Source: Desulfurispirillum indicum S5 (lineage in GTDB: Bacteria; Chrysiogenota; Chrysiogenetes; Chrysiogenales; Chrysiogenaceae). From it: a stretch of DNA of 64,000 nucleotides. The notes below the pieces were generated by a model. That model saw only the letters and a list, made by a program, of their open reading frames with translations, was not told where the DNA came from and ran no database searches. Below are positions 12,291 through 56,578 of the stretch, piece by piece. The position numbers and the translations under genes were made by a program. The stretch is from contig NC_014836.1 in the NCBI RefSeq assembly GCF_000177635.2, positions 973,501 to 1,037,500 of the forward strand, written 5' to 3'. Within the stretch, counting starts at the first letter, position 1; every line of letters begins with the position of its first letter.

Positions 12291-12731
12291 ATGAGTCAGC
12301 CTTCTTCGCGCCCGGTTTTGCAATCGATCATGAAACAGATTCATCATTCCTACCTGAACGGCCCTGCGGAACGCCCGGAAATCGGCGAACTGTTGAGCCG
12401 GTATCAGGATATCTCCCAGCACCAGCGCATTCTCCTGCTGGCAGGCTACCTGGAAATCCTCAATATTATTCACCAGGAGCAACTGGGCGTCCCCGTCCAA
12501 ACTCTTCAAAAAATACTCACCTCCATGCAACAACACCTGGGCCCCTGGGAAAGCACCCTGGGCGAGCTGCTCGGCAACGGCATGCTGCAGCACGCTATCC
12601 AGCAGGCCGATGAAAATGCCCCGGCCCTTGAGGTGCTCAGCGTCACGGAGCAAGGGTACGCGCTCATAGAAAACATCGTGGTGGAAGCCAATTTCAGCAC
12701 CAATAACATACAGAAGGTTGAGGAGCAGTAG
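12291..12731 (+). CDS. hypothetical protein
   Basis: 146-aa soluble protein with no signal, membrane segment or cysteine. It is predicted mostly helical, with a leucine-rich middle (HQRILLLAGYLEILNIIHQE, about residues 44-63) and the tail ENIVVEANFSTNNIQKVEEQ. I recognise no family. It is followed 1 base later by the FPDFL-type small gene, so the two probably form an operon. It is divergent from the ParA-like gene. Confidence 0.65.
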   Translation: MSQPSSRPVLQSIMKQIHHSYLNGPAERPEIGELLSRYQDISQHQRILLLAGYLEILNIIHQEQLGVPVQTLQKILTSMQQHLGPWESTLGELLGNGMLQHAIQQADENAPALEVLSVTEQGYALIENIVVEANFSTNNIQKVEEQ

Positions 12732-12732
12732 C

Positions 12733-12993
12733 ATGGATTTTTTTCGTGACCTGGAGAAGCAGACCCGTATCGCTCAGAAAGAGCGCGATTTCCCCGATTT
12801 CCTGACATGTCACATAGAAACCATTCTGCAAAAACCTGAAGAGTACGCCCACAAGGAAGATGAAATCATCCTGCTGACCGAGCAGATCGCCCTCTATGAA
12901 ACCTATGCCCAGACCGGATACCTGGGACGCGGCATGACTGCCGGAAATATCAAGGAAACCCTGAAGACCATCTTCGAAGTAAACAAGCTCTGA
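12733..12993 (+). CDS. small conserved protein, FPDFL/YETYA type (paralogue 1)
   Basis: 86-aa soluble acidic protein of unknown function. It shares FPDFL (about residues 20-24), YETYAxxG (about 55-62) and IKxTLK (about 73-78) with the 89-aa product at 49721-49990, with similar spacing. This establishes a paralogous pair. ATG 12733 is chosen because GAGGAG sits 7 bases upstream, overlapping the end of the preceding gene. I know no name for the family. Confidence 0.7.
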   Translation: MDFFRDLEKQTRIAQKERDFPDFLTCHIETILQKPEEYAHKEDEIILLTEQIALYETYAQTGYLGRGMTAGNIKETLKTIFEVNKL

Positions 12994-26595: not shown

Positions 26596-27408
26596 CTATG
26601 CCGCAAGCTTTTCCTCCTTTATTCTAAATACTGACATGTACATTTTGTCTGGTGTTCTGTAGTCAAGAGACTGATGAAACCTTCTGCTATTGTAGAAGGT
26701 GAAGTATCGCTTTACTCCTTCCTTGAGTTCGGTCATGTTCTCATAGCATTTGATATAGATGTTTTCGTATTTCACACTGCGCCAAAGGCGCTCTACGTAG
26801 ACATTGTCAAGGGCTCTGCCTTTGCCGTCCATGCTGATTCTGATGCCGTGACTCTTGAGTCTTTGCGTAAATGCCTCTGAGCTATATTGGCTTCCCTGGT
26901 CGGTGTTGAATATCCCAGGGACTCCATAGCGTCTGATGGCTTCATCCAGTGCTTCGAGGCAAAAGCAGGTATCCATGGTGTTGGAGATGCGCCAGCTCAG
27001 TACTTTGCGGCTGAACAGATCTATGATAGCTGTCAGGTACACCGTCTTGGCGCCAAGCTTCAAGTACGTGATATCAGTGGCCCAAACCTGGTTGGGAAGC
27101 CAGATATTCAATCCTCGCAGCAAGTACGGATACTTCTTGTGCTGCTTGTTGGCCCGTGAAAGATTGGGTTTGGGGTAAATCGCACGCAGCCCATGCTTGT
27201 GCATAATGCGCCGCACCTGTTTGGAACTCACGGCCATATCATGTTCCTCATTGAGCTGTATGGCTATCTTGCGATAACCGAAGGTGGGAATGTCTTGCAG
27301 CACCCTGAGAACAACCTTCAGTATTTCAAGATCAGATTCCTCCAGCGCCGACGAACGTGACTGGTAATAGTAGGTCGAGTGGCTGATGCCAAGCAACTTG
27401 CACTGCAT
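26596..27408 (-). CDS. IS3-family transposase OrfB (copy 1)
   Basis: 270-aa DDE integrase-like transposase. The catalytic residues sit in WATDITYL, FNTDQGSQYSS and NVYVERLWRS. An HTH_21-type region (IPTFGYRKI) precedes the rve core. The frame is open upstream through the A9 run at the end of orfA, so the active product is probably an OrfAB fusion made by -1 frameshifting rather than free OrfB. Confidence 0.93.
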   Translation of the reverse strand: MQCKLLGISHSTYYYQSRSSALEESDLEILKVVLRVLQDIPTFGYRKIAIQLNEEHDMAVSSKQVRRIMHKHGLRAIYPKPNLSRANKQHKKYPYLLRGLNIWLPNQVWATDITYLKLGAKTVYLTAIIDLFSRKVLSWRISNTMDTCFCLEALDEAIRRYGVPGIFNTDQGSQYSSEAFTQRLKSHGIRISMDGKGRALDNVYVERLWRSVKYENIYIKCYENMTELKEGVKRYFTFYNSRRFHQSLDYRTPDKMYMSVFRIKEEKLAA

Positions 27409-29780: not shown

Positions 29781-30593
29781 ATGCAGTGCAAGTTGCTTGG
29801 CATCAGCCACTCGACCTACTATTACCAGTCACGTTCGTCGGCGCTGGAGGAATCTGATCTTGAAATACTGAAGGTTGTTCTCAGGGTGCTGCAAGACATT
29901 CCCACCTTCGGTTATCGCAAGATAGCCATACAGCTCAATGAGGAACATGATATGGCCGTGAGTTCCAAACAGGTGCGGCGCATTATGCACAAGCATGGGC
30001 TGCGTGCGATTTACCCCAAACCCAATCTTTCACGGGCCAACAAGCAGCACAAGAAGTATCCGTACTTGCTGCGAGGATTGAATATCTGGCTTCCCAACCA
30101 GGTTTGGGCCACTGATATCACGTACTTGAAGCTTGGCGCCAAGACGGTGTACCTGACAGCTATCATAGATCTGTTCAGCCGCAAAGTACTGAGCTGGCGC
30201 ATCTCCAACACCATGGATACCTGCTTTTGCCTCGAAGCACTGGATGAAGCCATCAGACGCTATGGAGTCCCTGGGATATTCAACACCGACCAGGGAAGCC
30301 AATATAGCTCAGAGGCATTTACGCAAAGACTCAAGAGTCACGGCATCAGAATCAGCATGGACGGCAAAGGCAGAGCCCTTGACAATGTCTACGTAGAGCG
30401 CCTTTGGCGCAGTGTGAAATACGAAAACATCTATATCAAATGCTATGAGAACATGACCGAACTCAAGGAAGGAGTAAAGCGATACTTCACCTTCTACAAT
30501 AGCAGAAGGTTTCATCAGTCTCTTGACTACAGAACACCAGACAAAATGTACATGTCAGTATTTAGAATAAAGGAGGAAAAGCTTGCGGCATAG
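29781..30593 (+). CDS. IS3-family transposase OrfB (copy 2)
   Basis: 270-aa DDE transposase identical to the copy 1 product. Its frame has no stop between the A9 run and ATG 29781, which supports production as an OrfAB fusion. Confidence 0.93.
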   Translation: MQCKLLGISHSTYYYQSRSSALEESDLEILKVVLRVLQDIPTFGYRKIAIQLNEEHDMAVSSKQVRRIMHKHGLRAIYPKPNLSRANKQHKKYPYLLRGLNIWLPNQVWATDITYLKLGAKTVYLTAIIDLFSRKVLSWRISNTMDTCFCLEALDEAIRRYGVPGIFNTDQGSQYSSEAFTQRLKSHGIRISMDGKGRALDNVYVERLWRSVKYENIYIKCYENMTELKEGVKRYFTFYNSRRFHQSLDYRTPDKMYMSVFRIKEEKLAA

Positions 30594-49368: not shown

Positions 49369-49713
49369 ATGCAGGTATTCCATCACCATATATACGAATT
49401 CAAAAAGGGCCTGCGCAACCTGATTCTTCATACCGCGCCAGCTACCCACCGCTCATTGGTCATCAAAAAACTGGAGCACCACGGCATCGACTACCTCATC
49501 TACGACCAGGCTCCGGGAAAGATAAACATCTTTTTCGGCGATCCTTCCTGCATCCAGGTGCTGCGCCTGATCGGCAAGCAGAGCCTCAACCACTTCACCC
49601 TTGAAGAGGACTTCATGCTGGGCATCATGCTCGGTTACGACCGTAAAAAGCAGTGCGAACGATATATCACCCGCAGCGCCAAGGCCCAGGCGGTACAGGA
49701 ACTGACGGGCTGA
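49369..49713 (+). CDS. DUF2023 family protein
   Basis: 114-aa soluble protein. MQVFHHHIYEFKKGLRNLIL, then IDYLIYDQAPGKINIFFGD and EEDFMLGIMLGYDRKKQCER, match DUF2023 as I know it; the function is unknown. Full length. It is divergent from the nuclease gene and converges on the small FPDFL gene with a 7-base gap. Confidence 0.8.
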   Translation: MQVFHHHIYEFKKGLRNLILHTAPATHRSLVIKKLEHHGIDYLIYDQAPGKINIFFGDPSCIQVLRLIGKQSLNHFTLEEDFMLGIMLGYDRKKQCERYITRSAKAQAVQELTG

Positions 49714-49720
49714 CTCCGGA

Positions 49721-49990
49721 CTACCGGGAGCCCACCGGCCCCGGATAGCCCAGCCGCTTCAGGGTTACCTTGATGTCTTCGGAATCAAAGGCGGTTTTGC
49801 AACAGCCACTCTCGGCGTAGGTTTCATATTCGTCCACCTGCATCAGCAGGGTTTCCACGATCTCTTCCCGGTCGCCATAGGTATCGGGACTCTCGGCAAT
49901 GGACTTCACCGGTCCATAGAGAAAATCGGGAAACTCCCCCGCATCAGAACGGCGTTGCAGAGCTGCGCGCAAATCTTCAAACACACTCAT
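49721..49990 (-). CDS. small conserved protein, FPDFL/YETYA type (paralogue 2)
   Basis: 89-aa acidic soluble protein paralogous to that at 12733-12993: FPDFL (20-24), YETYAESG (55-62) and DIKVTLK (about 72-78). It has a CC pair (SGCCKTAF) not present in the paralogue. ATG 49990 has AGGAG 8 bases upstream. It starts 2 bases after the cysteine desulfurase stop, so it is almost surely in that operon, which hints at a sulfur-related role here. Confidence 0.72.
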   Translation of the reverse strand: MSVFEDLRAALQRRSDAGEFPDFLYGPVKSIAESPDTYGDREEIVETLLMQVDEYETYAESGCCKTAFDSEDIKVTLKRLGYPGPVGSR

Positions 49991-49992
49991 CG

Positions 49993-51135
49993 TCACTCTC
50001 CTTTGTTCATTACTTGCTTCCACTGCTGCACCACCGACGGCCAGTCCACGGGCGGTGTCAGGTGACACCAGGCCAGGCGAATGGCCGTGGCGACTCGCTT
50101 TTCCGAAAGCCCCATGGCGTGCAGCACGTGGCTCGGCTCTGCCGTATGGGCGGTACAGGCCGAACCGCTGGAAATGGCGATATGCTCCTTGACGATCCGG
50201 ACAGCTTCCATGGTGGGAACGCCGGGCAGGGAGATATTCAGCGTGTGGGGCAAGCAGTACTGCGGGTCGCCATTTATGTGGTACGTAAGCCCCTGCAAGC
50301 CCGCGAGAACCTGACGGCGAAATGCTTCACAGGCAGAGTGGCGCTGTTGTTCCTGGCGTACAGCCATGCTGGCGGCCGTTCCGAATCCGGCGATCAGGGG
50401 AACCGCCAGGGTTCCAGGGCGCAGGCCCTGTTCCTGGCCACCTCCAAACTGCAGGGGTTGCAGCGGCGGACAACTCCCCCCGCGCCTGCGGGCAATCAGG
50501 GCTCCAACTCCCTTGGGGCCAAATATTTTATGGGCACTGGCGCTGATCATGTCGATACGTGGGTGCTGCAGGCTCACCAGCTCTTTGCCAAAACCCTGGG
50601 CAGCGTCCACGTGGAAAAAGGCGTCATGGCCCTCCAGTACAGTGGCAATTTCTTCAACGGGTTGACGGATTCCCGTCTCATTGTTGACTTGCATGACAGA
50701 GACCAGCAGAGTGTCAGGGCGCAACGCCGCAGCTGCGTTTTGGGCGCTCACCCGTCCGCTGGAATCTGCGGGGAGAATGGTAAGAGAGAATCCCCGCGAT
50801 GCCAGATATTCCATGGGCTCCAGCACCGACTTGTGCTCCAGCGCCGTGGTCACCAGGTGGCGTCTGCCCGTCGCAAGGCCATAGTCGGCGAGTCCCAGTA
50901 CAGCCAGGTTATTGGCCTCCGTGGCACCGCTGGTGAAAATAACCTCATCGCGTCGCGCCCCAACCACCCGCGCCACCTGTGTCCGGCCTGTTTCCACAGC
51001 CATGCGGGCGCCTTCGCCATACTGGTGCACCGGACTGGCCGCGTTTCCGTATTCTTCCTCCATATAGCGCTGAATAACGCTCTGCACCCTGGGCTCCAGG
51101 GGGGTGGTGGCGTTGCAGTCCAGATAGACGGTCAC
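49993..51135 (-). CDS. cysteine desulfurase, DndA-like
   Basis: 380-aa PLP enzyme of the NifS/IscS group that takes sulfur from cysteine. The N-terminus MTVYLDCNATTPLEPRV and HVDAAQGFGKELVSLQHPRI resemble DndA-type enzymes more than IscS. The PLP lysine is in SASAHKIFGPKGVG, and the active-site Cys is in SSGSACTAHTAEPSHV. No dndB-E or other phosphorothioation genes are in the window, nor an IscU. It is co-transcribed with the FPDFL small gene. It may be a general sulfur donor. Confidence 0.85.
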   Translation of the reverse strand: MTVYLDCNATTPLEPRVQSVIQRYMEEEYGNAASPVHQYGEGARMAVETGRTQVARVVGARRDEVIFTSGATEANNLAVLGLADYGLATGRRHLVTTALEHKSVLEPMEYLASRGFSLTILPADSSGRVSAQNAAAALRPDTLLVSVMQVNNETGIRQPVEEIATVLEGHDAFFHVDAAQGFGKELVSLQHPRIDMISASAHKIFGPKGVGALIARRRGGSCPPLQPLQFGGGQEQGLRPGTLAVPLIAGFGTAASMAVRQEQQRHSACEAFRRQVLAGLQGLTYHINGDPQYCLPHTLNISLPGVPTMEAVRIVKEHIAISSGSACTAHTAEPSHVLHAMGLSEKRVATAIRLAWCHLTPPVDWPSVVQQWKQVMNKGE

Positions 51136-51293: not shown

Positions 51294-51416
51294 GCAATGG
51301 AAAACCCACAGGTGCAAGGCGCCCGCAGAGCAAGGAGTGGCGAGCACTGCCTGTACTGTCACAACGGGCGGTGGCGGGCAAGCCGCAGATGGGGATTTTT
51401 CAGCAGCCTGCTAAGA
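51294..51416. repeat. intergenic repeat family A, copy 4
   Basis: A diverged A element (AATGGAAAACCCACAGGTGC to GGATTTTTCAGCAGCCTGCT) in the leader between the predicted promoter and the Rrf2 gene. It would therefore be transcribed. Confidence 0.75.
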
Positions 51417-51436
51417 CACTGAACCAGGGGGAAATA

Positions 51437-51847
51437 ATGGCGTGTGTTTCATCCAAGGGAGCCTATGGGCTGGCGGCTATGCTTTACCTGGCGCAGCATG
51501 CTGACAAGCTTATCCAGATACGGGATATCGCCAAAAACGGCGGCATCCCCCAGAATTACCTGGAGCAGCTGCTGGTACAGCTGAAAAAGAATGGCTTTGT
51601 GGAAAGTACCCGCGGAGCAGGGGGCGGATATCGCCTGGCCATGGAGCCCAAGGATATCACCATCTATCAGATTCTCGAGGCCCTGGAGGGTGAGCTGTGC
51701 GCCAATCGTTACGATGTGGACAACAAGGCTCTGGAATTCTTCTGGGACGACATCCGTCGGAAAATCCAGGAGGTGTTCGGACAGACCCTGGCTGATCTGG
51801 TGGATCTGAGCGAAAAAATGGAATCCAACACCATGTACTACATCTAG
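51437..51847 (+). CDS. Rrf2-family transcriptional regulator (CymR-like)
   Basis: 136-aa winged-helix protein: SSKGAYGLAAMLYLAQHA, recognition helix region GIPQNYLEQLLVQLKKNGFV and wing STRGAGGGYRL. Unlike IscR it lacks the three-Cys cluster-binding set; only Cys3 and one Cys near residue 92 are present. It therefore more likely senses cysteine metabolism through a partner, as CymR does with CysK. It is followed 9 bases later by cysK. Start at ATG 51437 with AGGGGGA upstream. Confidence 0.88.
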   Translation: MACVSSKGAYGLAAMLYLAQHADKLIQIRDIAKNGGIPQNYLEQLLVQLKKNGFVESTRGAGGGYRLAMEPKDITIYQILEALEGELCANRYDVDNKALEFFWDDIRRKIQEVFGQTLADLVDLSEKMESNTMYYI

Positions 51848-51856
51848 GGGGTGGCC

Positions 51857-52780
51857 GTGAAAATTCACTATAATATTACAGAATTGATAGGCAATACTCC
51901 CCTGCTGAAACTCAACCGCGTCGATGGTGCCGCCAACGCCATGGTTCTGGGCAAATGCGAATTCCTCAATCCCACCGCTTCTGTCAAGGATCGCATCGGC
52001 TACAGCATGATTGACGCCGCCATTGCCAGCGGCATGATCAAAAGCAGCCGAACGACTATCATCGAGCCTACCAGCGGCAATACGGGCATCGCCCTGGCCA
52101 GCATCTGCGCCTCCATGGGGCTGAAGCTGATCCTCACCATGCCTGACTCCATGAGTCTGGAGCGGCAGAAACTGCTGCGCGCCCTGGGAGCCTCCCTGGA
52201 ACTGACCCCCTCTGAACTGGGAATGAAAGGGGCAGTGGATCGCGCCATGGAGCTCAGTCGGGAAATTCCCGACGCTATCGTGCTCCAGCAGTTCAACAAC
52301 AAGGCTAACCCCAAGGTTCACCGCGCCACAACTGCCGAGGAAATCTGGCGCGACACCGAGGGCAAGGTCGATATCTTCGTGTGCGGTGTCGGCACTGGCG
52401 GAACCATTTCCGGCGTGGCCGATGTGCTGAAAGCCCGCAAGCCGGATGTCCGGATCGTTGCCGTTGAGCCCCAGGGCTCAGCTGTCCTGCAGGGTGGCAA
52501 ACCCGGCGCCCACAAACTTCAGGGTCTTGGTGCCGGCTTCATCCCCAAGGTGATGGACATGAGCCTGATCGATGAGGTCATCAGCGTCAGCGATGAAGAC
52601 GCTCTTGCCATGACCCGCCAGCTGGCCAGTCTCGAAGGTGTACTGGTGGGAATCTCTTCGGGTGCCAATGTCCATGCTGCCCTCCAGGTTGCCCACCGCC
52701 CAGAAAATGCCGGCAAGGTCATCGTGACCATGCTCACCGATACCGGGGAGCGCTATCTCAGCGCCAACGTATTTGACTGA
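51857..52780 (+). CDS. cysK: cysteine synthase A (O-acetylserine sulfhydrylase)
   Basis: 307-aa PLP enzyme joining sulfide and O-acetylserine into cysteine. The PLP lysine is in [11 protein letters not shown] (about residues 37-47), and the substrate loop is [23 protein letters not shown] binds the PLP phosphate. GTG 51857 gives the conserved start (M)[15 protein letters not shown] with AGGGGG upstream; GTG 51851 is the alternative. It is in an operon with the Rrf2 regulator. Confidence 0.95.
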
Positions 52781-52880: not shown

Positions 52881-53981
52881 ATGCTACGCATTCTGCGCGA
52901 CTGGTATGATGATCACTTTTCCAACCCCCAGGTAGCCATACTGGCCATTGCCCTGATTATCGGCTTCAGTGTCGTGATCTTCATGGGCAATATACTCATG
53001 CCCTTTTTCGCAGCCATCATCATTGCCTACCTGCTGGATGGACTGGTGCAGAAGCTGTGCCGGCTGGGAATTCCCCATACCCCCGCGGCCATCCTGGTCT
53101 TCGTGGTGTTCATGGGCGCTTTCCTGTTCCTGCTCTTTGCCATCGTCCCCATGATTGCCCGCCAGCTCACCCAGCTGGCCCGCGAAATGCCGCTGATGAT
53201 TAACATGGGACAACAGGCGCTGATGCGCCTGCCCGAGATGTATCCCGAGTTTATCAGCCAGCAGCAGGTGCGCAACTATATCAACCTGATGACCAGCGAA
53301 GTGGGGAAGTTCAGCCAGCAGATCCTCTCCTGGTCACTGGCTTCTGTCACCAGCATCATCGCCTTCCTGGTCTACCTGATCCTCGTGCCTCTTATGGTCT
53401 TCTTCTTCCTGAAGGACAAGGAGCACCTGATCCAGTGGTTCAGCAGCTTCCTGCCGGAGAATCGGCCCCTCATGAATCTGGTGTGGTCCGAGGTCAATAT
53501 CAAGATCGCCAGCTATGTGCGCGGCAAGGCCATGGAAATCATCATAGTCTGGGCTATCAGCTACGCCACCTTTGCCATCATGGGGCTGGACTTTGCCCTG
53601 CTGCTGGCCATGCTGGTGGGCATCTCCGTGCTGATCCCCTACGTGGGCGCCACGGTGGTGACGATCCCCATCGCCTTTATCGCCTATGTGCAGTGGGGCT
53701 TCACCTCACAGTTCGCCTACCTGATGATCGCCTATGCCATTATCCAGTTTTTTGACGGCAATATCCTCGTGCCCATCCTCTTCTCCGAAGTGGTCAACCT
53801 GCACCCCATCGCCATTGTCACCTCGATCCTCGTCTTCGGCGGTCTGTGGGGTTTCTGGGGGATATTCTTCGCCATACCCCTGGCGACGCTTATCCAGTCC
53901 ATTATCGGTGCCTGGCCCAACAAGGAGGTCATTCAGGAGCAGGAAGGACTCGCCCAGGAAGAGTCGCCGCCCGCTTCATGA
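52881..53981 (+). CDS. AI-2E/PerM family transporter
   Basis: 366-aa polytopic membrane protein with about seven or eight helices. It has the family pattern of two to three N-terminal helices, a long amphipathic middle (about 85-155) and a C-terminal cluster with LVGISVLIPYVGATVVTIP and DGNILVPILFSEVVNLHPI. Proposed substrates vary (autoinducer-2, Na+/H+), so none is assigned. Its 3' end overlaps the convergent SDR gene by 53 bases. Confidence 0.88.
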   Translation: MLRILRDWYDDHFSNPQVAILAIALIIGFSVVIFMGNILMPFFAAIIIAYLLDGLVQKLCRLGIPHTPAAILVFVVFMGAFLFLLFAIVPMIARQLTQLAREMPLMINMGQQALMRLPEMYPEFISQQQVRNYINLMTSEVGKFSQQILSWSLASVTSIIAFLVYLILVPLMVFFFLKDKEHLIQWFSSFLPENRPLMNLVWSEVNIKIASYVRGKAMEIIIVWAISYATFAIMGLDFALLLAMLVGISVLIPYVGATVVTIPIAFIAYVQWGFTSQFAYLMIAYAIIQFFDGNILVPILFSEVVNLHPIAIVTSILVFGGLWGFWGIFFAIPLATLIQSIIGAWPNKEVIQEQEGLAQEESPPAS

Positions 53982-55377
53982 TCTGATTCGCCAGATCATT
54001 GAAAACAAAGAAGTGGGCGGGCACCATCAGATACCAGTAGAGCCGCCCCCACAAACCGCTGGGATAGAAGTAGGCCGTCTGCAGCAACTGCCCGTCATCC
54101 ACCACGAACTCCAGCCACGCTTTTCCGGGAACCTTCATCTGGGCCATCAGTAACAGGCGCCGATTTTCCTGCAGATCCACCACCTTCCAGAAGTCCAGGC
54201 AGTCGCCCACCCGCAGATCGCACATCTGGCGACGCCCACGCCGCAGACCCACGCCTCCCAGCACCTTGTCAATCAGCCCCCGCAATCCCCACAGCCAGCT
54301 GAAACGAAACCAACCTGTCTCACCACCTACCGTGGTGAAGGAAGCGAAGACCTGCCCCGGAGTGCAGCTTCCCAGCTGGCGCACGCGTCGATCCACAAAG
54401 ACCGCATGGGCAATACCTTCCACCATGGAAGCCTCCGGCGCACGGCCCCAGGCATCGGACCAGCGGCTGACAACCTGATCACGCTCTATTTCGGCAATAG
54501 CGCGGCGCACCGCCTCTTCATAGGAAAGAGGCACGCTGGCAAAAAGCCGGCTGGCCTCATCATTGCGCACCAGCACCTCGGAACCCAATCCATCGATGAG
54601 GGCGCGGGCCACCGGATAGGGCACTGGTGTAAACAATGCCAGCCAGTAGGAAGAAAGGCGTGGCGTCAACAGGGGAACAGGAATCAGCAAGCGCCTGAGT
54701 CCCATGACCCGGGCGGTGGCCAGCATCATCTCTCCATAACTCATCACTTCGCTGCCGATATCAATCACGCGGTTACCCGCCACCTCCAGGCTGGCCGCCT
54801 GCCCTAAGAAAGCAATCACATCGTCCACCGCAATGGGCTGAGCTTTTGTACTGACCCAGCGTGGCGTCACCAGCACCGGCAGCTTCTGCACCAGGTTACG
54901 GATAATTTCAAAGCTGGTGGAACCGGAACCGATAATCACCCCGGCACGAAACCACAGGGTCTGTACATCGTCAGGGCAGCTGGAAAGAATCTCCCCGGTC
55001 TCTATGCGGCTTACCAGATGCTCACTGGCCTGATCCTTGTCTCCCAATCCTCCAAGGTAAATGATGCGCCTGACCCCCGCCGCAATCGCAGCAGCACGAA
55101 AATTCTCCGCCCCCTGCCGATCAAGCTCTTTGAAGCGTTCTCCGGCTGCCAGGGAATGCACCAGATAGTAGGCAACATCCACACCCTGCAGCGCAGAAGT
55201 CAGCGTCTGGGGCTTCAGCACGTCGCCCTCCACCACCTCGCAGTCATCCAGAGCATCCTGGGAAATGGAAGCCCGGTGCCGCACCATCAAACGCAGCGAA
55301 CCAGAGTGCTGCGCCTGCAACCAACGCTTCAGCCGCCGCCCGATATACCCATTGGCACCCGTCAACAAAACTCGCAT
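53929..55377 (-). CDS. NAD(P)-binding SDR/epimerase with C-terminal DUF2867-like domain
   Basis: 482 aa. The Rossmann domain starts MRVLLTGANGYIGRRLKRWL (GxxGxxG). The middle resembles atypical SDRs (VDVAYYLVHSLAAGERFKEL, RIIYLGGLGD). The C-terminal 160 or so residues (FASFTTVGGETGWFRFSWLW, RLLLMAQMKVPGKAWLEFVV) match DUF2867-type domains. The substrate is unknown. ATG 55377 has GGGGG upstream; the open frame to 55635 enters the sbp promoter. Convergent overlap with perM. Confidence 0.85.
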   Translation of the reverse strand: MRVLLTGANGYIGRRLKRWLQAQHSGSLRLMVRHRASISQDALDDCEVVEGDVLKPQTLTSALQGVDVAYYLVHSLAAGERFKELDRQGAENFRAAAIAAGVRRIIYLGGLGDKDQASEHLVSRIETGEILSSCPDDVQTLWFRAGVIIGSGSTSFEIIRNLVQKLPVLVTPRWVSTKAQPIAVDDVIAFLGQAASLEVAGNRVIDIGSEVMSYGEMMLATARVMGLRRLLIPVPLLTPRLSSYWLALFTPVPYPVARALIDGLGSEVLVRNDEASRLFASVPLSYEEAVRRAIAEIERDQVVSRWSDAWGRAPEASMVEGIAHAVFVDRRVRQLGSCTPGQVFASFTTVGGETGWFRFSWLWGLRGLIDKVLGGVGLRRGRRQMCDLRVGDCLDFWKVVDLQENRRLLLMAQMKVPGKAWLEFVVDDGQLLQTAYFYPSGLWGRLYWYLMVPAHFFVFNDLANQIMKRAATLPGRVLPAPE

Positions 55378-55486
55378 GGCCACCCCCGATCTTCTGCCGA
55401 CAGCATAGCATGAACCAAAGCGCTGATAACAGGGAATCTGAGCACCTTGCCCCATGAAGCCGCAGGTATTCACTATTATTTCAATC

Positions 55487-55519
55487 AATTTACTTGACTT
55501 TATTTTTCTCCACTCTATA
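55487..55519 (+). promoter_or_regulatory. Promoter of the sulfate operon with shared motif
   Basis: AATTTACTTGACTTTAT (55487-55503) matches the rrf2-cysK motif in 15 of 17 positions. It contains the -35 TTGACT (55494-55499), followed after 15 to 16 bases by TATACT. This suggests common control by the Rrf2 protein. Confidence 0.55.
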
Positions 55520-55546
55520 CTGCGCTCAACACAAAGGGAGAGCGAA

Positions 55547-56578
55547 ATGCCAAAACAGCGGACACCTATCAGGATACTTTTCATCACAGCCCTGGCACTC
55601 TTGGCATGGGCACCGGCACAATCCCGGCCTGTCACACTGCTGAACGCCTCCTACGACCCAACCCGGGAGTTCTATCGTGAATACAATCAGTACTTTGCCC
55701 GCCAGTGGCAGAAGCAGACAGGGCAGTCCATAACCATCCGTCAGTCCCACGGTGGCTCCGGCTCCCAGGCCCAGGCAGTCATCAACGGGCTGGACGCCGA
55801 TGTGGTGACCCTGGCCCTGGCCTATGATGTGGATGTGCTAGATCAGCGAGGGGCACTGATTCCCCAGAACTGGCAGGAACGCCTGCCTGGCAACTCATCC
55901 CCTTACACTTCCACCATTGTGCTGCTGGTGCGGGCGGGTAACCCCAAGAACATTCAGGACTGGGACGACCTGATCCGCGACGACGTGCAGGTGATTACCC
56001 CCAACCCCAAAACCTCCGGTGGTGCCCGCTGGAACTATCTGGCGGCCTGGGGCTTTGCCGAGAAAAAATATGGCCGCCAGGAGAAGGCGCGGGAATTCAT
56101 GGAAAAGCTCTTTGCCAATGTTCCGGTGCTTGATCCAGCGGCCCGCGGCGCCACCAACACCTTTGTCCAGCGTCGCATCGGCGATGTGCTGCTGGCCTGG
56201 GAGAACGAAGCCCTGCTGGTGCAGGAGCGGCTGGGTCGTGGTCAATACGAAATCGTGGTGCCTTCGGTCAGCATCCTGGCCGAACCCCCGGTAGCTGTGG
56301 TGGATCGCAATGTGGATCGCAAGGAAACCCGCACCGTGGCAGAAGCCTACCTGGAGGGACTCTACAGCGACGAAGCCCAGCGGTTGGCGGGCAAGCACTC
56401 CTACCGCCCCTCCAACCCCAAGATAGCCGCCGAATTTGCCGACCGCTTCCCGGCCGTGAACTTCTTTACCATCGATGGGATGTTCAACGGCTGGCAGAAC
56501 GCCCAGGAGACCCACTTCAACGATGGTGGAGTATTTGATGACATCCAGGAAAGGATCGCCCGCAATCGTCGCCGCTAG
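55547..56578 (+). CDS. sbp: sulfate ABC transporter substrate-binding protein
   Basis: 343-aa periplasmic sulfate/thiosulfate-binding protein. A signal peptide ([16 protein letters not shown]) is followed by [40 protein letters not shown] and [19 protein letters not shown], which line the sulfate pocket in Sbp/CysP. ATG 55547 follows GGGAG; the frame to 55454 is dismissed because the promoter lies there. First gene of the sulfate run. Confidence 0.94.

Follow-up and report, generated by a model that had tools for sequence, protein, structure and literature searches.

IscX and CyaY (frataxin), small acidic partners of the cysteine desulfurase IscS, offer candidates for how the two small proteins considered here might work; according to extracts of PMC2854127, IscX comes from the isc operon, and both proteins bind IscS through a negatively charged patch, with R220 and R237 among the IscS residues involved. 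The dedicated desulfurase acceptors SufE/SufU (as described in published abstracts) and TusA (as described in extracts of PMC2854127) are likewise candidates for the way in which one of the two, here called A, might work. By sequence, both proteins belong to the GSU3529 family (NCBIfam NF045727), which stands as one undivided subfamily without a function, and the desulfurase encoded beside A is, with its relatives, nearest to DndA (TIGR03235), having the catalytic Cys and PLP Lys in common with it.

The window analysed here is a stretch of 64,000 nucleotides from Desulfurispirillum indicum S5 (NC_014836.1, positions 973,501 to 1,037,500), and it carries one gene each of two GSU3529 subtypes, A and B. 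Both products score above the NF045727 cut-off over the full model; where that model recognises a single subfamily, we distinguish several subtypes, two of which, A and B, accompany one clade of desulfurases. Enzymes of that clade have A/B genes beside them, whereas Dnd-linked enzymes have dndB-E. The window proteins differ from IscX and CyaY in lacking any Pfam match, and from SufE/SufU and TusA both in this respect and in having all-helical models. The two genes, with the loop of interest and the gene ahead of B, are as follows:

12291..12731 (+): P0004, a helical protein of 146 aa, directly upstream of P0001 (B)
12733..12993 (+): P0001, GSU3529 family subtype B, 86 aa; NF045727 96.6 bits; Tyr63, without a loop Cys
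49721..49990 (-): P0003, GSU3529 family subtype A, 89 aa; NF045727 99.1 bits; GCCK loop with Cys63-Cys64
49799..49804 (-): codons of P0003 Cys63 and Cys64, the proposed sulfur-accepting loop, as read from the sequence

Two GSU3529 family proteins and their subtypes

The original prediction had described two paralogous small proteins sharing FPDFL, YETYA and IKxTLK motifs, and had known of no family to which they might belong. Its coordinates and lengths were right for both genes, with the strand of the second left unstated; the plus-strand reading of 49721-49990 is unrelated to the family, and it is the minus-strand reading that yields P0003. The motifs are as proposed (FPDFL, YETYAQTG and IKETLK in P0001; FPDFL, YETYAESG and IKVTLK in P0003), and the claimed full-length alignment takes the form of an ungapped match over 80 aa with 26/80 residues identical (33%). 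Since this BLASTP match is gapless, with E = 2e-14 for the pair and E = 9.9e-9 in a search of the whole genome (2,928,377 bp) in which P0001 and P0003 were the only family copies, the likeness is beyond chance and the motif spacing is fixed. Shine-Dalgarno-like stretches precede both start codons, gaggag ahead of the ATG at 12733 and aaaggag ahead of that of P0003 (the latter lying within the last codons of the desulfurase gene, P0005), which bears out the ribosome-binding sites first noted. The neighbours, too, are those originally named: P0004 ends 1 base before P0001, and the cysteine desulfurase P0005 ends 2 bases before P0003.

The family itself, on the other hand, already had a name. P0001 (E = 7.6e-28) and P0003 (E = 1.2e-28) both match NF045727.1, GSU3529 family protein, well over its curated cut-off of 44 bits and across model positions 1-78 of 78. 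As NF045727 matches and Pfam offers no family for either protein at E <= 1, we regard the family as named but uncharacterised; at the same threshold there was no match to the Pfam models of IscX, CyaY/frataxin, SufE, SufU/IscU or TusA. PHROGs gave no match for the window proteins and PDB sequences nothing convincing (best E = 1.2 and 0.13). The original prediction holds in that this is a true two-member small-protein family with conserved motifs and no characterised domain.

Homologues are found outside the window's genome, with NF045727 matches in 21/59 of its relatives and in 68/146 genomes from the class to which G059, source of the Geomonas edaphica locus L047, belongs. Matches were also made in 6/296 genomes from the phylum of G059 (G059, G061, G065, G066, G070 and G073), all of which also stand in the class sample, and in 0/14 control genomes. 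The named family matches fall in Desulfuromonadales/Geobacter-type bacteria, some records titled as Deltaproteobacteria and one member of the Deferribacteraceae. A plasmid or phage origin for P0003 was considered and set aside, as tblastn returned nothing from 72,556 plasmid and 50,697 phage records.

Structure prediction for each protein alone, from alignments of 61 and 57 rows, gave confident four-helix models for P0003 (mean pLDDT 86) and P0001 (mean pLDDT 88), both all-helical and with no strand of >= 3 residues; the loop between helices 3 and 4, which carries Cys in P0003 and Tyr in P0001, is among the least certain parts of each. The best matches among PDB folds, neither of them convincing, were, for P0003, a designed protein (Z 6.6, rmsd 2.9, 72 aligned) and, for P0001, one with Z 6.7 (rmsd 3.8, 83 aligned). 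Foldseek gave no match for P0003 at E <= 0.001, and a missing fold match of this kind does not mean a new fold. The proteins are acidic, with a median pI of 4.43 for A and 4.63 for B.

To place the pair within the wider family, we gathered 136 genes from all matched places (111 stretches) together with the two window stretches, and divided them by the loop between helices 3 and 4 into A (GCCK, n=31), B (GYLGMG-like, n=38), C (GCF, n=32), D (CCEK-like, n=14), E (DCGCF, n=8), F (GCGN, n=8) and G (GLGCF-like, n=5). Because the subtype names use the loop, the split is partly one of definition, which cannot be said of the near-universal Cys in non-B members: at the column of P0003 Cys63, Cys stands in 94/96 of those with a residue there, including all 30 A genes so placed, and Tyr in 38/38 B. 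In a family tree of 129/136 rows (rows < 70 aa and identical rows omitted), B forms one side of a branch (100/97), and subtypes A, C and D do not resolve as single groups. P0001 groups with L183 inside B (99/99) and P0003 pairs with L179 (99/94). P0001 and P0003 are representatives of different ancient subtypes. A recent duplication within the window was also considered, and is rejected because each protein has its own nearest relative in the related genome G002 (L183 and L179, respectively), which has the same A/B split as the window.

The remaining subtypes keep other company. E lies beside a divergent rhodanese gene in 7/8 loci; C lies beside DUF134 in 9/32 loci and NifU_N in 2/32, and a dinitrogenase FeMo-cofactor-type protein is matched 11 times at greater distance. 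Several individual genes merit mention in their own right. At L125:4992-5462 (-) one reading frame joins an Rdx (SelW-type) domain (E = 4.8e-6) to a C-subtype domain, the latter lacking its own start codon at the junction, an arrangement that, like the neighbours of E and C, points towards sulfur or clusters; at L156:2138-3583 (-) a B-subtype domain continues in frame into a UbiE-type methyltransferase domain; and a small Cys-rich protein without a Pfam match (L122:4714-4980 (-) and relatives) is encoded <= 300 bp downstream of C genes in 16/32 loci.

A DndA-family desulfurase beside subtype A

Upstream of the A gene lies the desulfurase, and divergent to it a regulator and a cysteine synthase:

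49993..51135 (-): P0005, cysteine desulfurase of the DndA family, 380 aa; Cys327, PLP Lys203; without dndB-E nearby
51371..51847 (+): Rrf2-family regulator, divergent; closest equivalog CymR, scoring under its cut-off
51851..52780 (+): cysK, encoding cysteine synthase A and lying downstream of Rrf2; TIGR01139 431.5 bits, cut-off 350.95

P0005 scores 478.7 bits against the DndA model TIGR03235, just under the curated cut-off of 480; it is 57% identical to a plasmid dndA, its best solved relative is DndA (3vax), and it also matches the SspA model in PADLOC. Its neighbours are A, Rrf2 and CysK, with no dndB-E beside it, and DndD in the window's genome reaches 19 bits against a cut-off of 245.85. 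The CymR-like Rrf2 gene and CysK, divergent to P0005, fit a setting in cysteine metabolism. P0005 is not the sole desulfurase of this genome, as another such gene, by our reading of its sequence, adjoins a NifU-like gene (L202).

In the second of two desulfurase trees, for which the window genome's three further desulfurases were taken out and five plasmid sequences put in, the A/B-linked enzymes, two unlinked ones included, form one clade (n=28; 100/99), with 10 Dnd-linked enzymes falling outside it. A test of a single Dnd-linked clade in this tree (10 Dnd-linked sequences, 4 from plasmids) gave p-AU 0.096. We take the A/B clade as firm; an origin from inside DndA is possible. All 38 desulfurases (28/28 A/B-linked) retain the catalytic Cys and PLP Lys. 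Scores against TIGR03235, taken for 10 desulfurases and P0005, run from 442 to 485 for A/B-linked enzymes (7 checked, including P0005) as against 501-521 for Dnd-linked ones (n=4); one A/B-linked enzyme, at 485.5 bits, exceeds the cut-off of 480, and the NCBI model can accordingly mislabel such enzymes as DndA.

Under the filter used, four positions separate A/B-linked from Dnd-linked enzymes, and three of these (35, 217 and 236; the first is Pro35 in P0005) align with IscS R39, R220 and R237, the last being Gln in A/B-linked enzymes as opposed to Arg in IscS and DndA. The extracts of PMC2854127 report that IscS R220E and the double mutant R237E/M239E weaken binding of both CyaY and IscX, and that R39E weakens binding of CyaY. 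We treat this correspondence as a hint only, because the R/K difference at 217 is mild and the IscS residues tested were chosen surface ones.

Gene order and co-occurrence

A desulfurase like P0005 lies <= 100 bp upstream, on the same strand, of 26/31 A genes and of 0/105 other family genes; this count comes from a search of all ORFs, since the simple longest-ORF caller behind our gene maps missed some desulfurases (L090, L096, L112). The spacing between desulfurase and A is mostly -4 to +17 bp, and B follows directly behind A in 23 loci (23/38 B genes), Geomonas and Pelotalea being examples of such adjacency. What the original prediction missed, then, is the main point: the two proteins are ancient subtypes whose genes usually stand side by side behind a desulfurase of one particular clade; in the window the pair is split, which is the rarer state. 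Here the desulfurase-A pair is intact, with its 2-base gap, and B sits ~37 kb away behind P0004, a homologue of which also precedes B in G002 (L183). P0004 has no Pfam match near its cut-off, and its L183 homologue a weak, below-cut-off match to DnaD_N. In the maps, the desulfurase is often preceded by a divergent LysR gene (for 19 LysR matches A is the nearest family gene, each time > 300 bp away). Two further observations belong to the surroundings of A genes: a DUF2023 protein (E = 1.1e-40) at window 49369-49713 (+) is convergent with P0003, no link to the A gene having been seen elsewhere, and the A gene of G085 (L152:4995-5174 (+)) has an in-frame TAA ahead of its Cys loop, with the adjoining desulfurase and B open.

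Across genomes, the same three genes travel together. The P0005-like clade in the class sample comprises 31 genes in 30 genomes (52-62% identity, E <= 1.9e-128; next match E = 1.8e-95); 24 of these 30 genomes have A, and all 24 also have B. The other 6 (G071, G086, G111, G119, G140, G141) are without A, and in 6/6 the desulfurase lies beside dnd-like genes (dndB, dndC and dndD models were tested on L206, and dndB on L211). DndD is over its cut-off in 6/6 Dnd-linked genomes as against 1/27 A/B genomes (G186). Among the 59 relatives, G000, G002 and G004 alone carry the P0005-like clade, and these are precisely the three that have both A and B. Over all 205 genomes (146 + 59), then, the same 27 have A, B and a desulfurase of the non-Dnd P0005-like clade; given the kinship among the genomes, the cases do not count as independent events.

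The association survives changes in gene order, with all three genes kept where the desulfurase is apart from A-B (2/27 genomes: G061, G077) and where B is apart from A (5/27: G000, G002, G132, G162, G187). There are exceptions: G012, G018 and G041 have an A-like gene but neither the desulfurase nor B, and 10 genomes have B while lacking A. We also note that L180, L181 and L182, from Deferribacterota-side genomes, carry a GCCK-type gene but neither the desulfurase clade nor B; it lies near genes which, named from their sequences, are glycerophosphodiester-phosphodiesterase-like and membrane protein genes.

A candidate sulfur relay and its alternatives

The desulfurase, A and B are associated in the genomes, apart from dndB-E, and the loop Cys of A and Tyr of B are kept. 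On this footing we consider that A (P0003) and B (P0001) are very probably dedicated functional partners of the P0005 desulfurase. How they might serve it is a matter on which we are more reserved, and from here we infer that the proteins physically bind, that persulfide passes between them, what B does and where the sulfur goes. We propose that P0005 is a DndA-family desulfurase working outside DNA phosphorothioation, which would take sulfur from L-cysteine onto its own Cys327; the acidic, four-helix A protein would dock near the Cys327 loop and take the persulfide on Cys63, possibly with Cys64, in its presumably flexible GCCK loop. B, with Tyr in place of the Cys, would carry no sulfur; it may join A or the enzyme in a structural or regulatory capacity, and may help to steer sulfur to a target. 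The suggestion that A carries sulfur draws on the kept loop Cys and on the gene maps, in which no further sulfur acceptor is linked to the desulfurase-A-B operon; we would put the prospects of A as an acceptor at close to even, if anything a shade under, and those of the whole account, a dedicated desulfurase module with A as persulfide acceptor and B as its Cys-less partner, as evenly balanced.

Much of the same evidence could be read differently. A and B might be regulators of the desulfurase, as IscX or frataxin (CyaY) are for IscS, binding beside the active-site loop and tuning its rate, with the Cys serving in redox sensing or structure. The operon and co-occurrence evidence applies equally to such a regulator; A and B are small, acidic and helical, so that size and charge fit it nearly as well as they fit an acceptor; B is without the loop Cys yet always kept with the enzyme; and R220 and R237 of IscS, residues named in the extracts of PMC2854127, correspond to positions at which the A/B-linked clade differs. 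The near-universal loop Cys of non-B members would, however, be needless in a pure modulator, the Gln at the R237 position may point to another docking mode, and no other linked acceptor was seen in the operon. On balance we think a regulatory role for the pair unlikely, if still a serious proposition, and retain A as the candidate acceptor.

A broader reading is that GSU3529 family proteins are general adaptors for diverse enzymes, the desulfurase link being one case and no sulfur chemistry being involved. Methyltransferase genes stand next to B in 2 loci, to G in 3/5 and to D in 5/14, always on the same strand, and in one case a B domain shares its reading frame with a methyltransferase domain. 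We consider this improbable, as the contexts of A, C and E lean towards sulfur or metal-cluster genes and the Cys is nearly universal outside B; even so, because other subtypes have other neighbours, methyltransferases included, sulfur carriage is possibly not the common role of the family. That P0005 still serves DNA phosphorothioation, with A and B as accessory parts of a Dnd-like defence system, is highly improbable: its closeness to DndA speaks for such a role, but there are no dnd genes at the A/B loci, the single A/B genome with DndD over cut-off is not that of the window, and neither P0001 nor P0003 matches any PADLOC model. With its match to the SspA model, P0005 may have a link to Ssp.

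Returning to the relay from P0005 to A, we speculate, more tentatively than for the module itself, that it may represent a new kind of sulfur relay, in which a DndA-derived desulfurase lineage, uncoupled from DNA modification, passes sulfur to an all-helical carrier (A) acting as a heteromer with its Cys-less paralogue (B), in anaerobes of the Chrysiogenota/Deferribacterota and Desulfuromonadia, with the wider GSU3529 family serving as sulfur or cluster adaptors. A full-text search, judged by titles and the starts of abstracts and covering little of the subscription literature, found no published description of a desulfurase-A-B system; what is new here is the split between A and B and their tie to one desulfurase clade. 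A family of blank function thereby gains a testable role, and DndA-type desulfurases an apparent second use beyond DNA modification; if true, the mechanism would add a new type of protein to the short list of desulfurase sulfur acceptors and modulators.

Elsewhere in the window, two ORFs of 270 aa lie on opposite strands, at 26596-27408 (-) and 29781-30593 (+), with mirrored sets of overlapping ORFs; the arrangement suggests a single element, perhaps an insertion sequence, present twice in inverted orientation. A 568-aa protein encoded at 53929-55635 (-) combines an NAD(P)H-binding domain with DUF2867.
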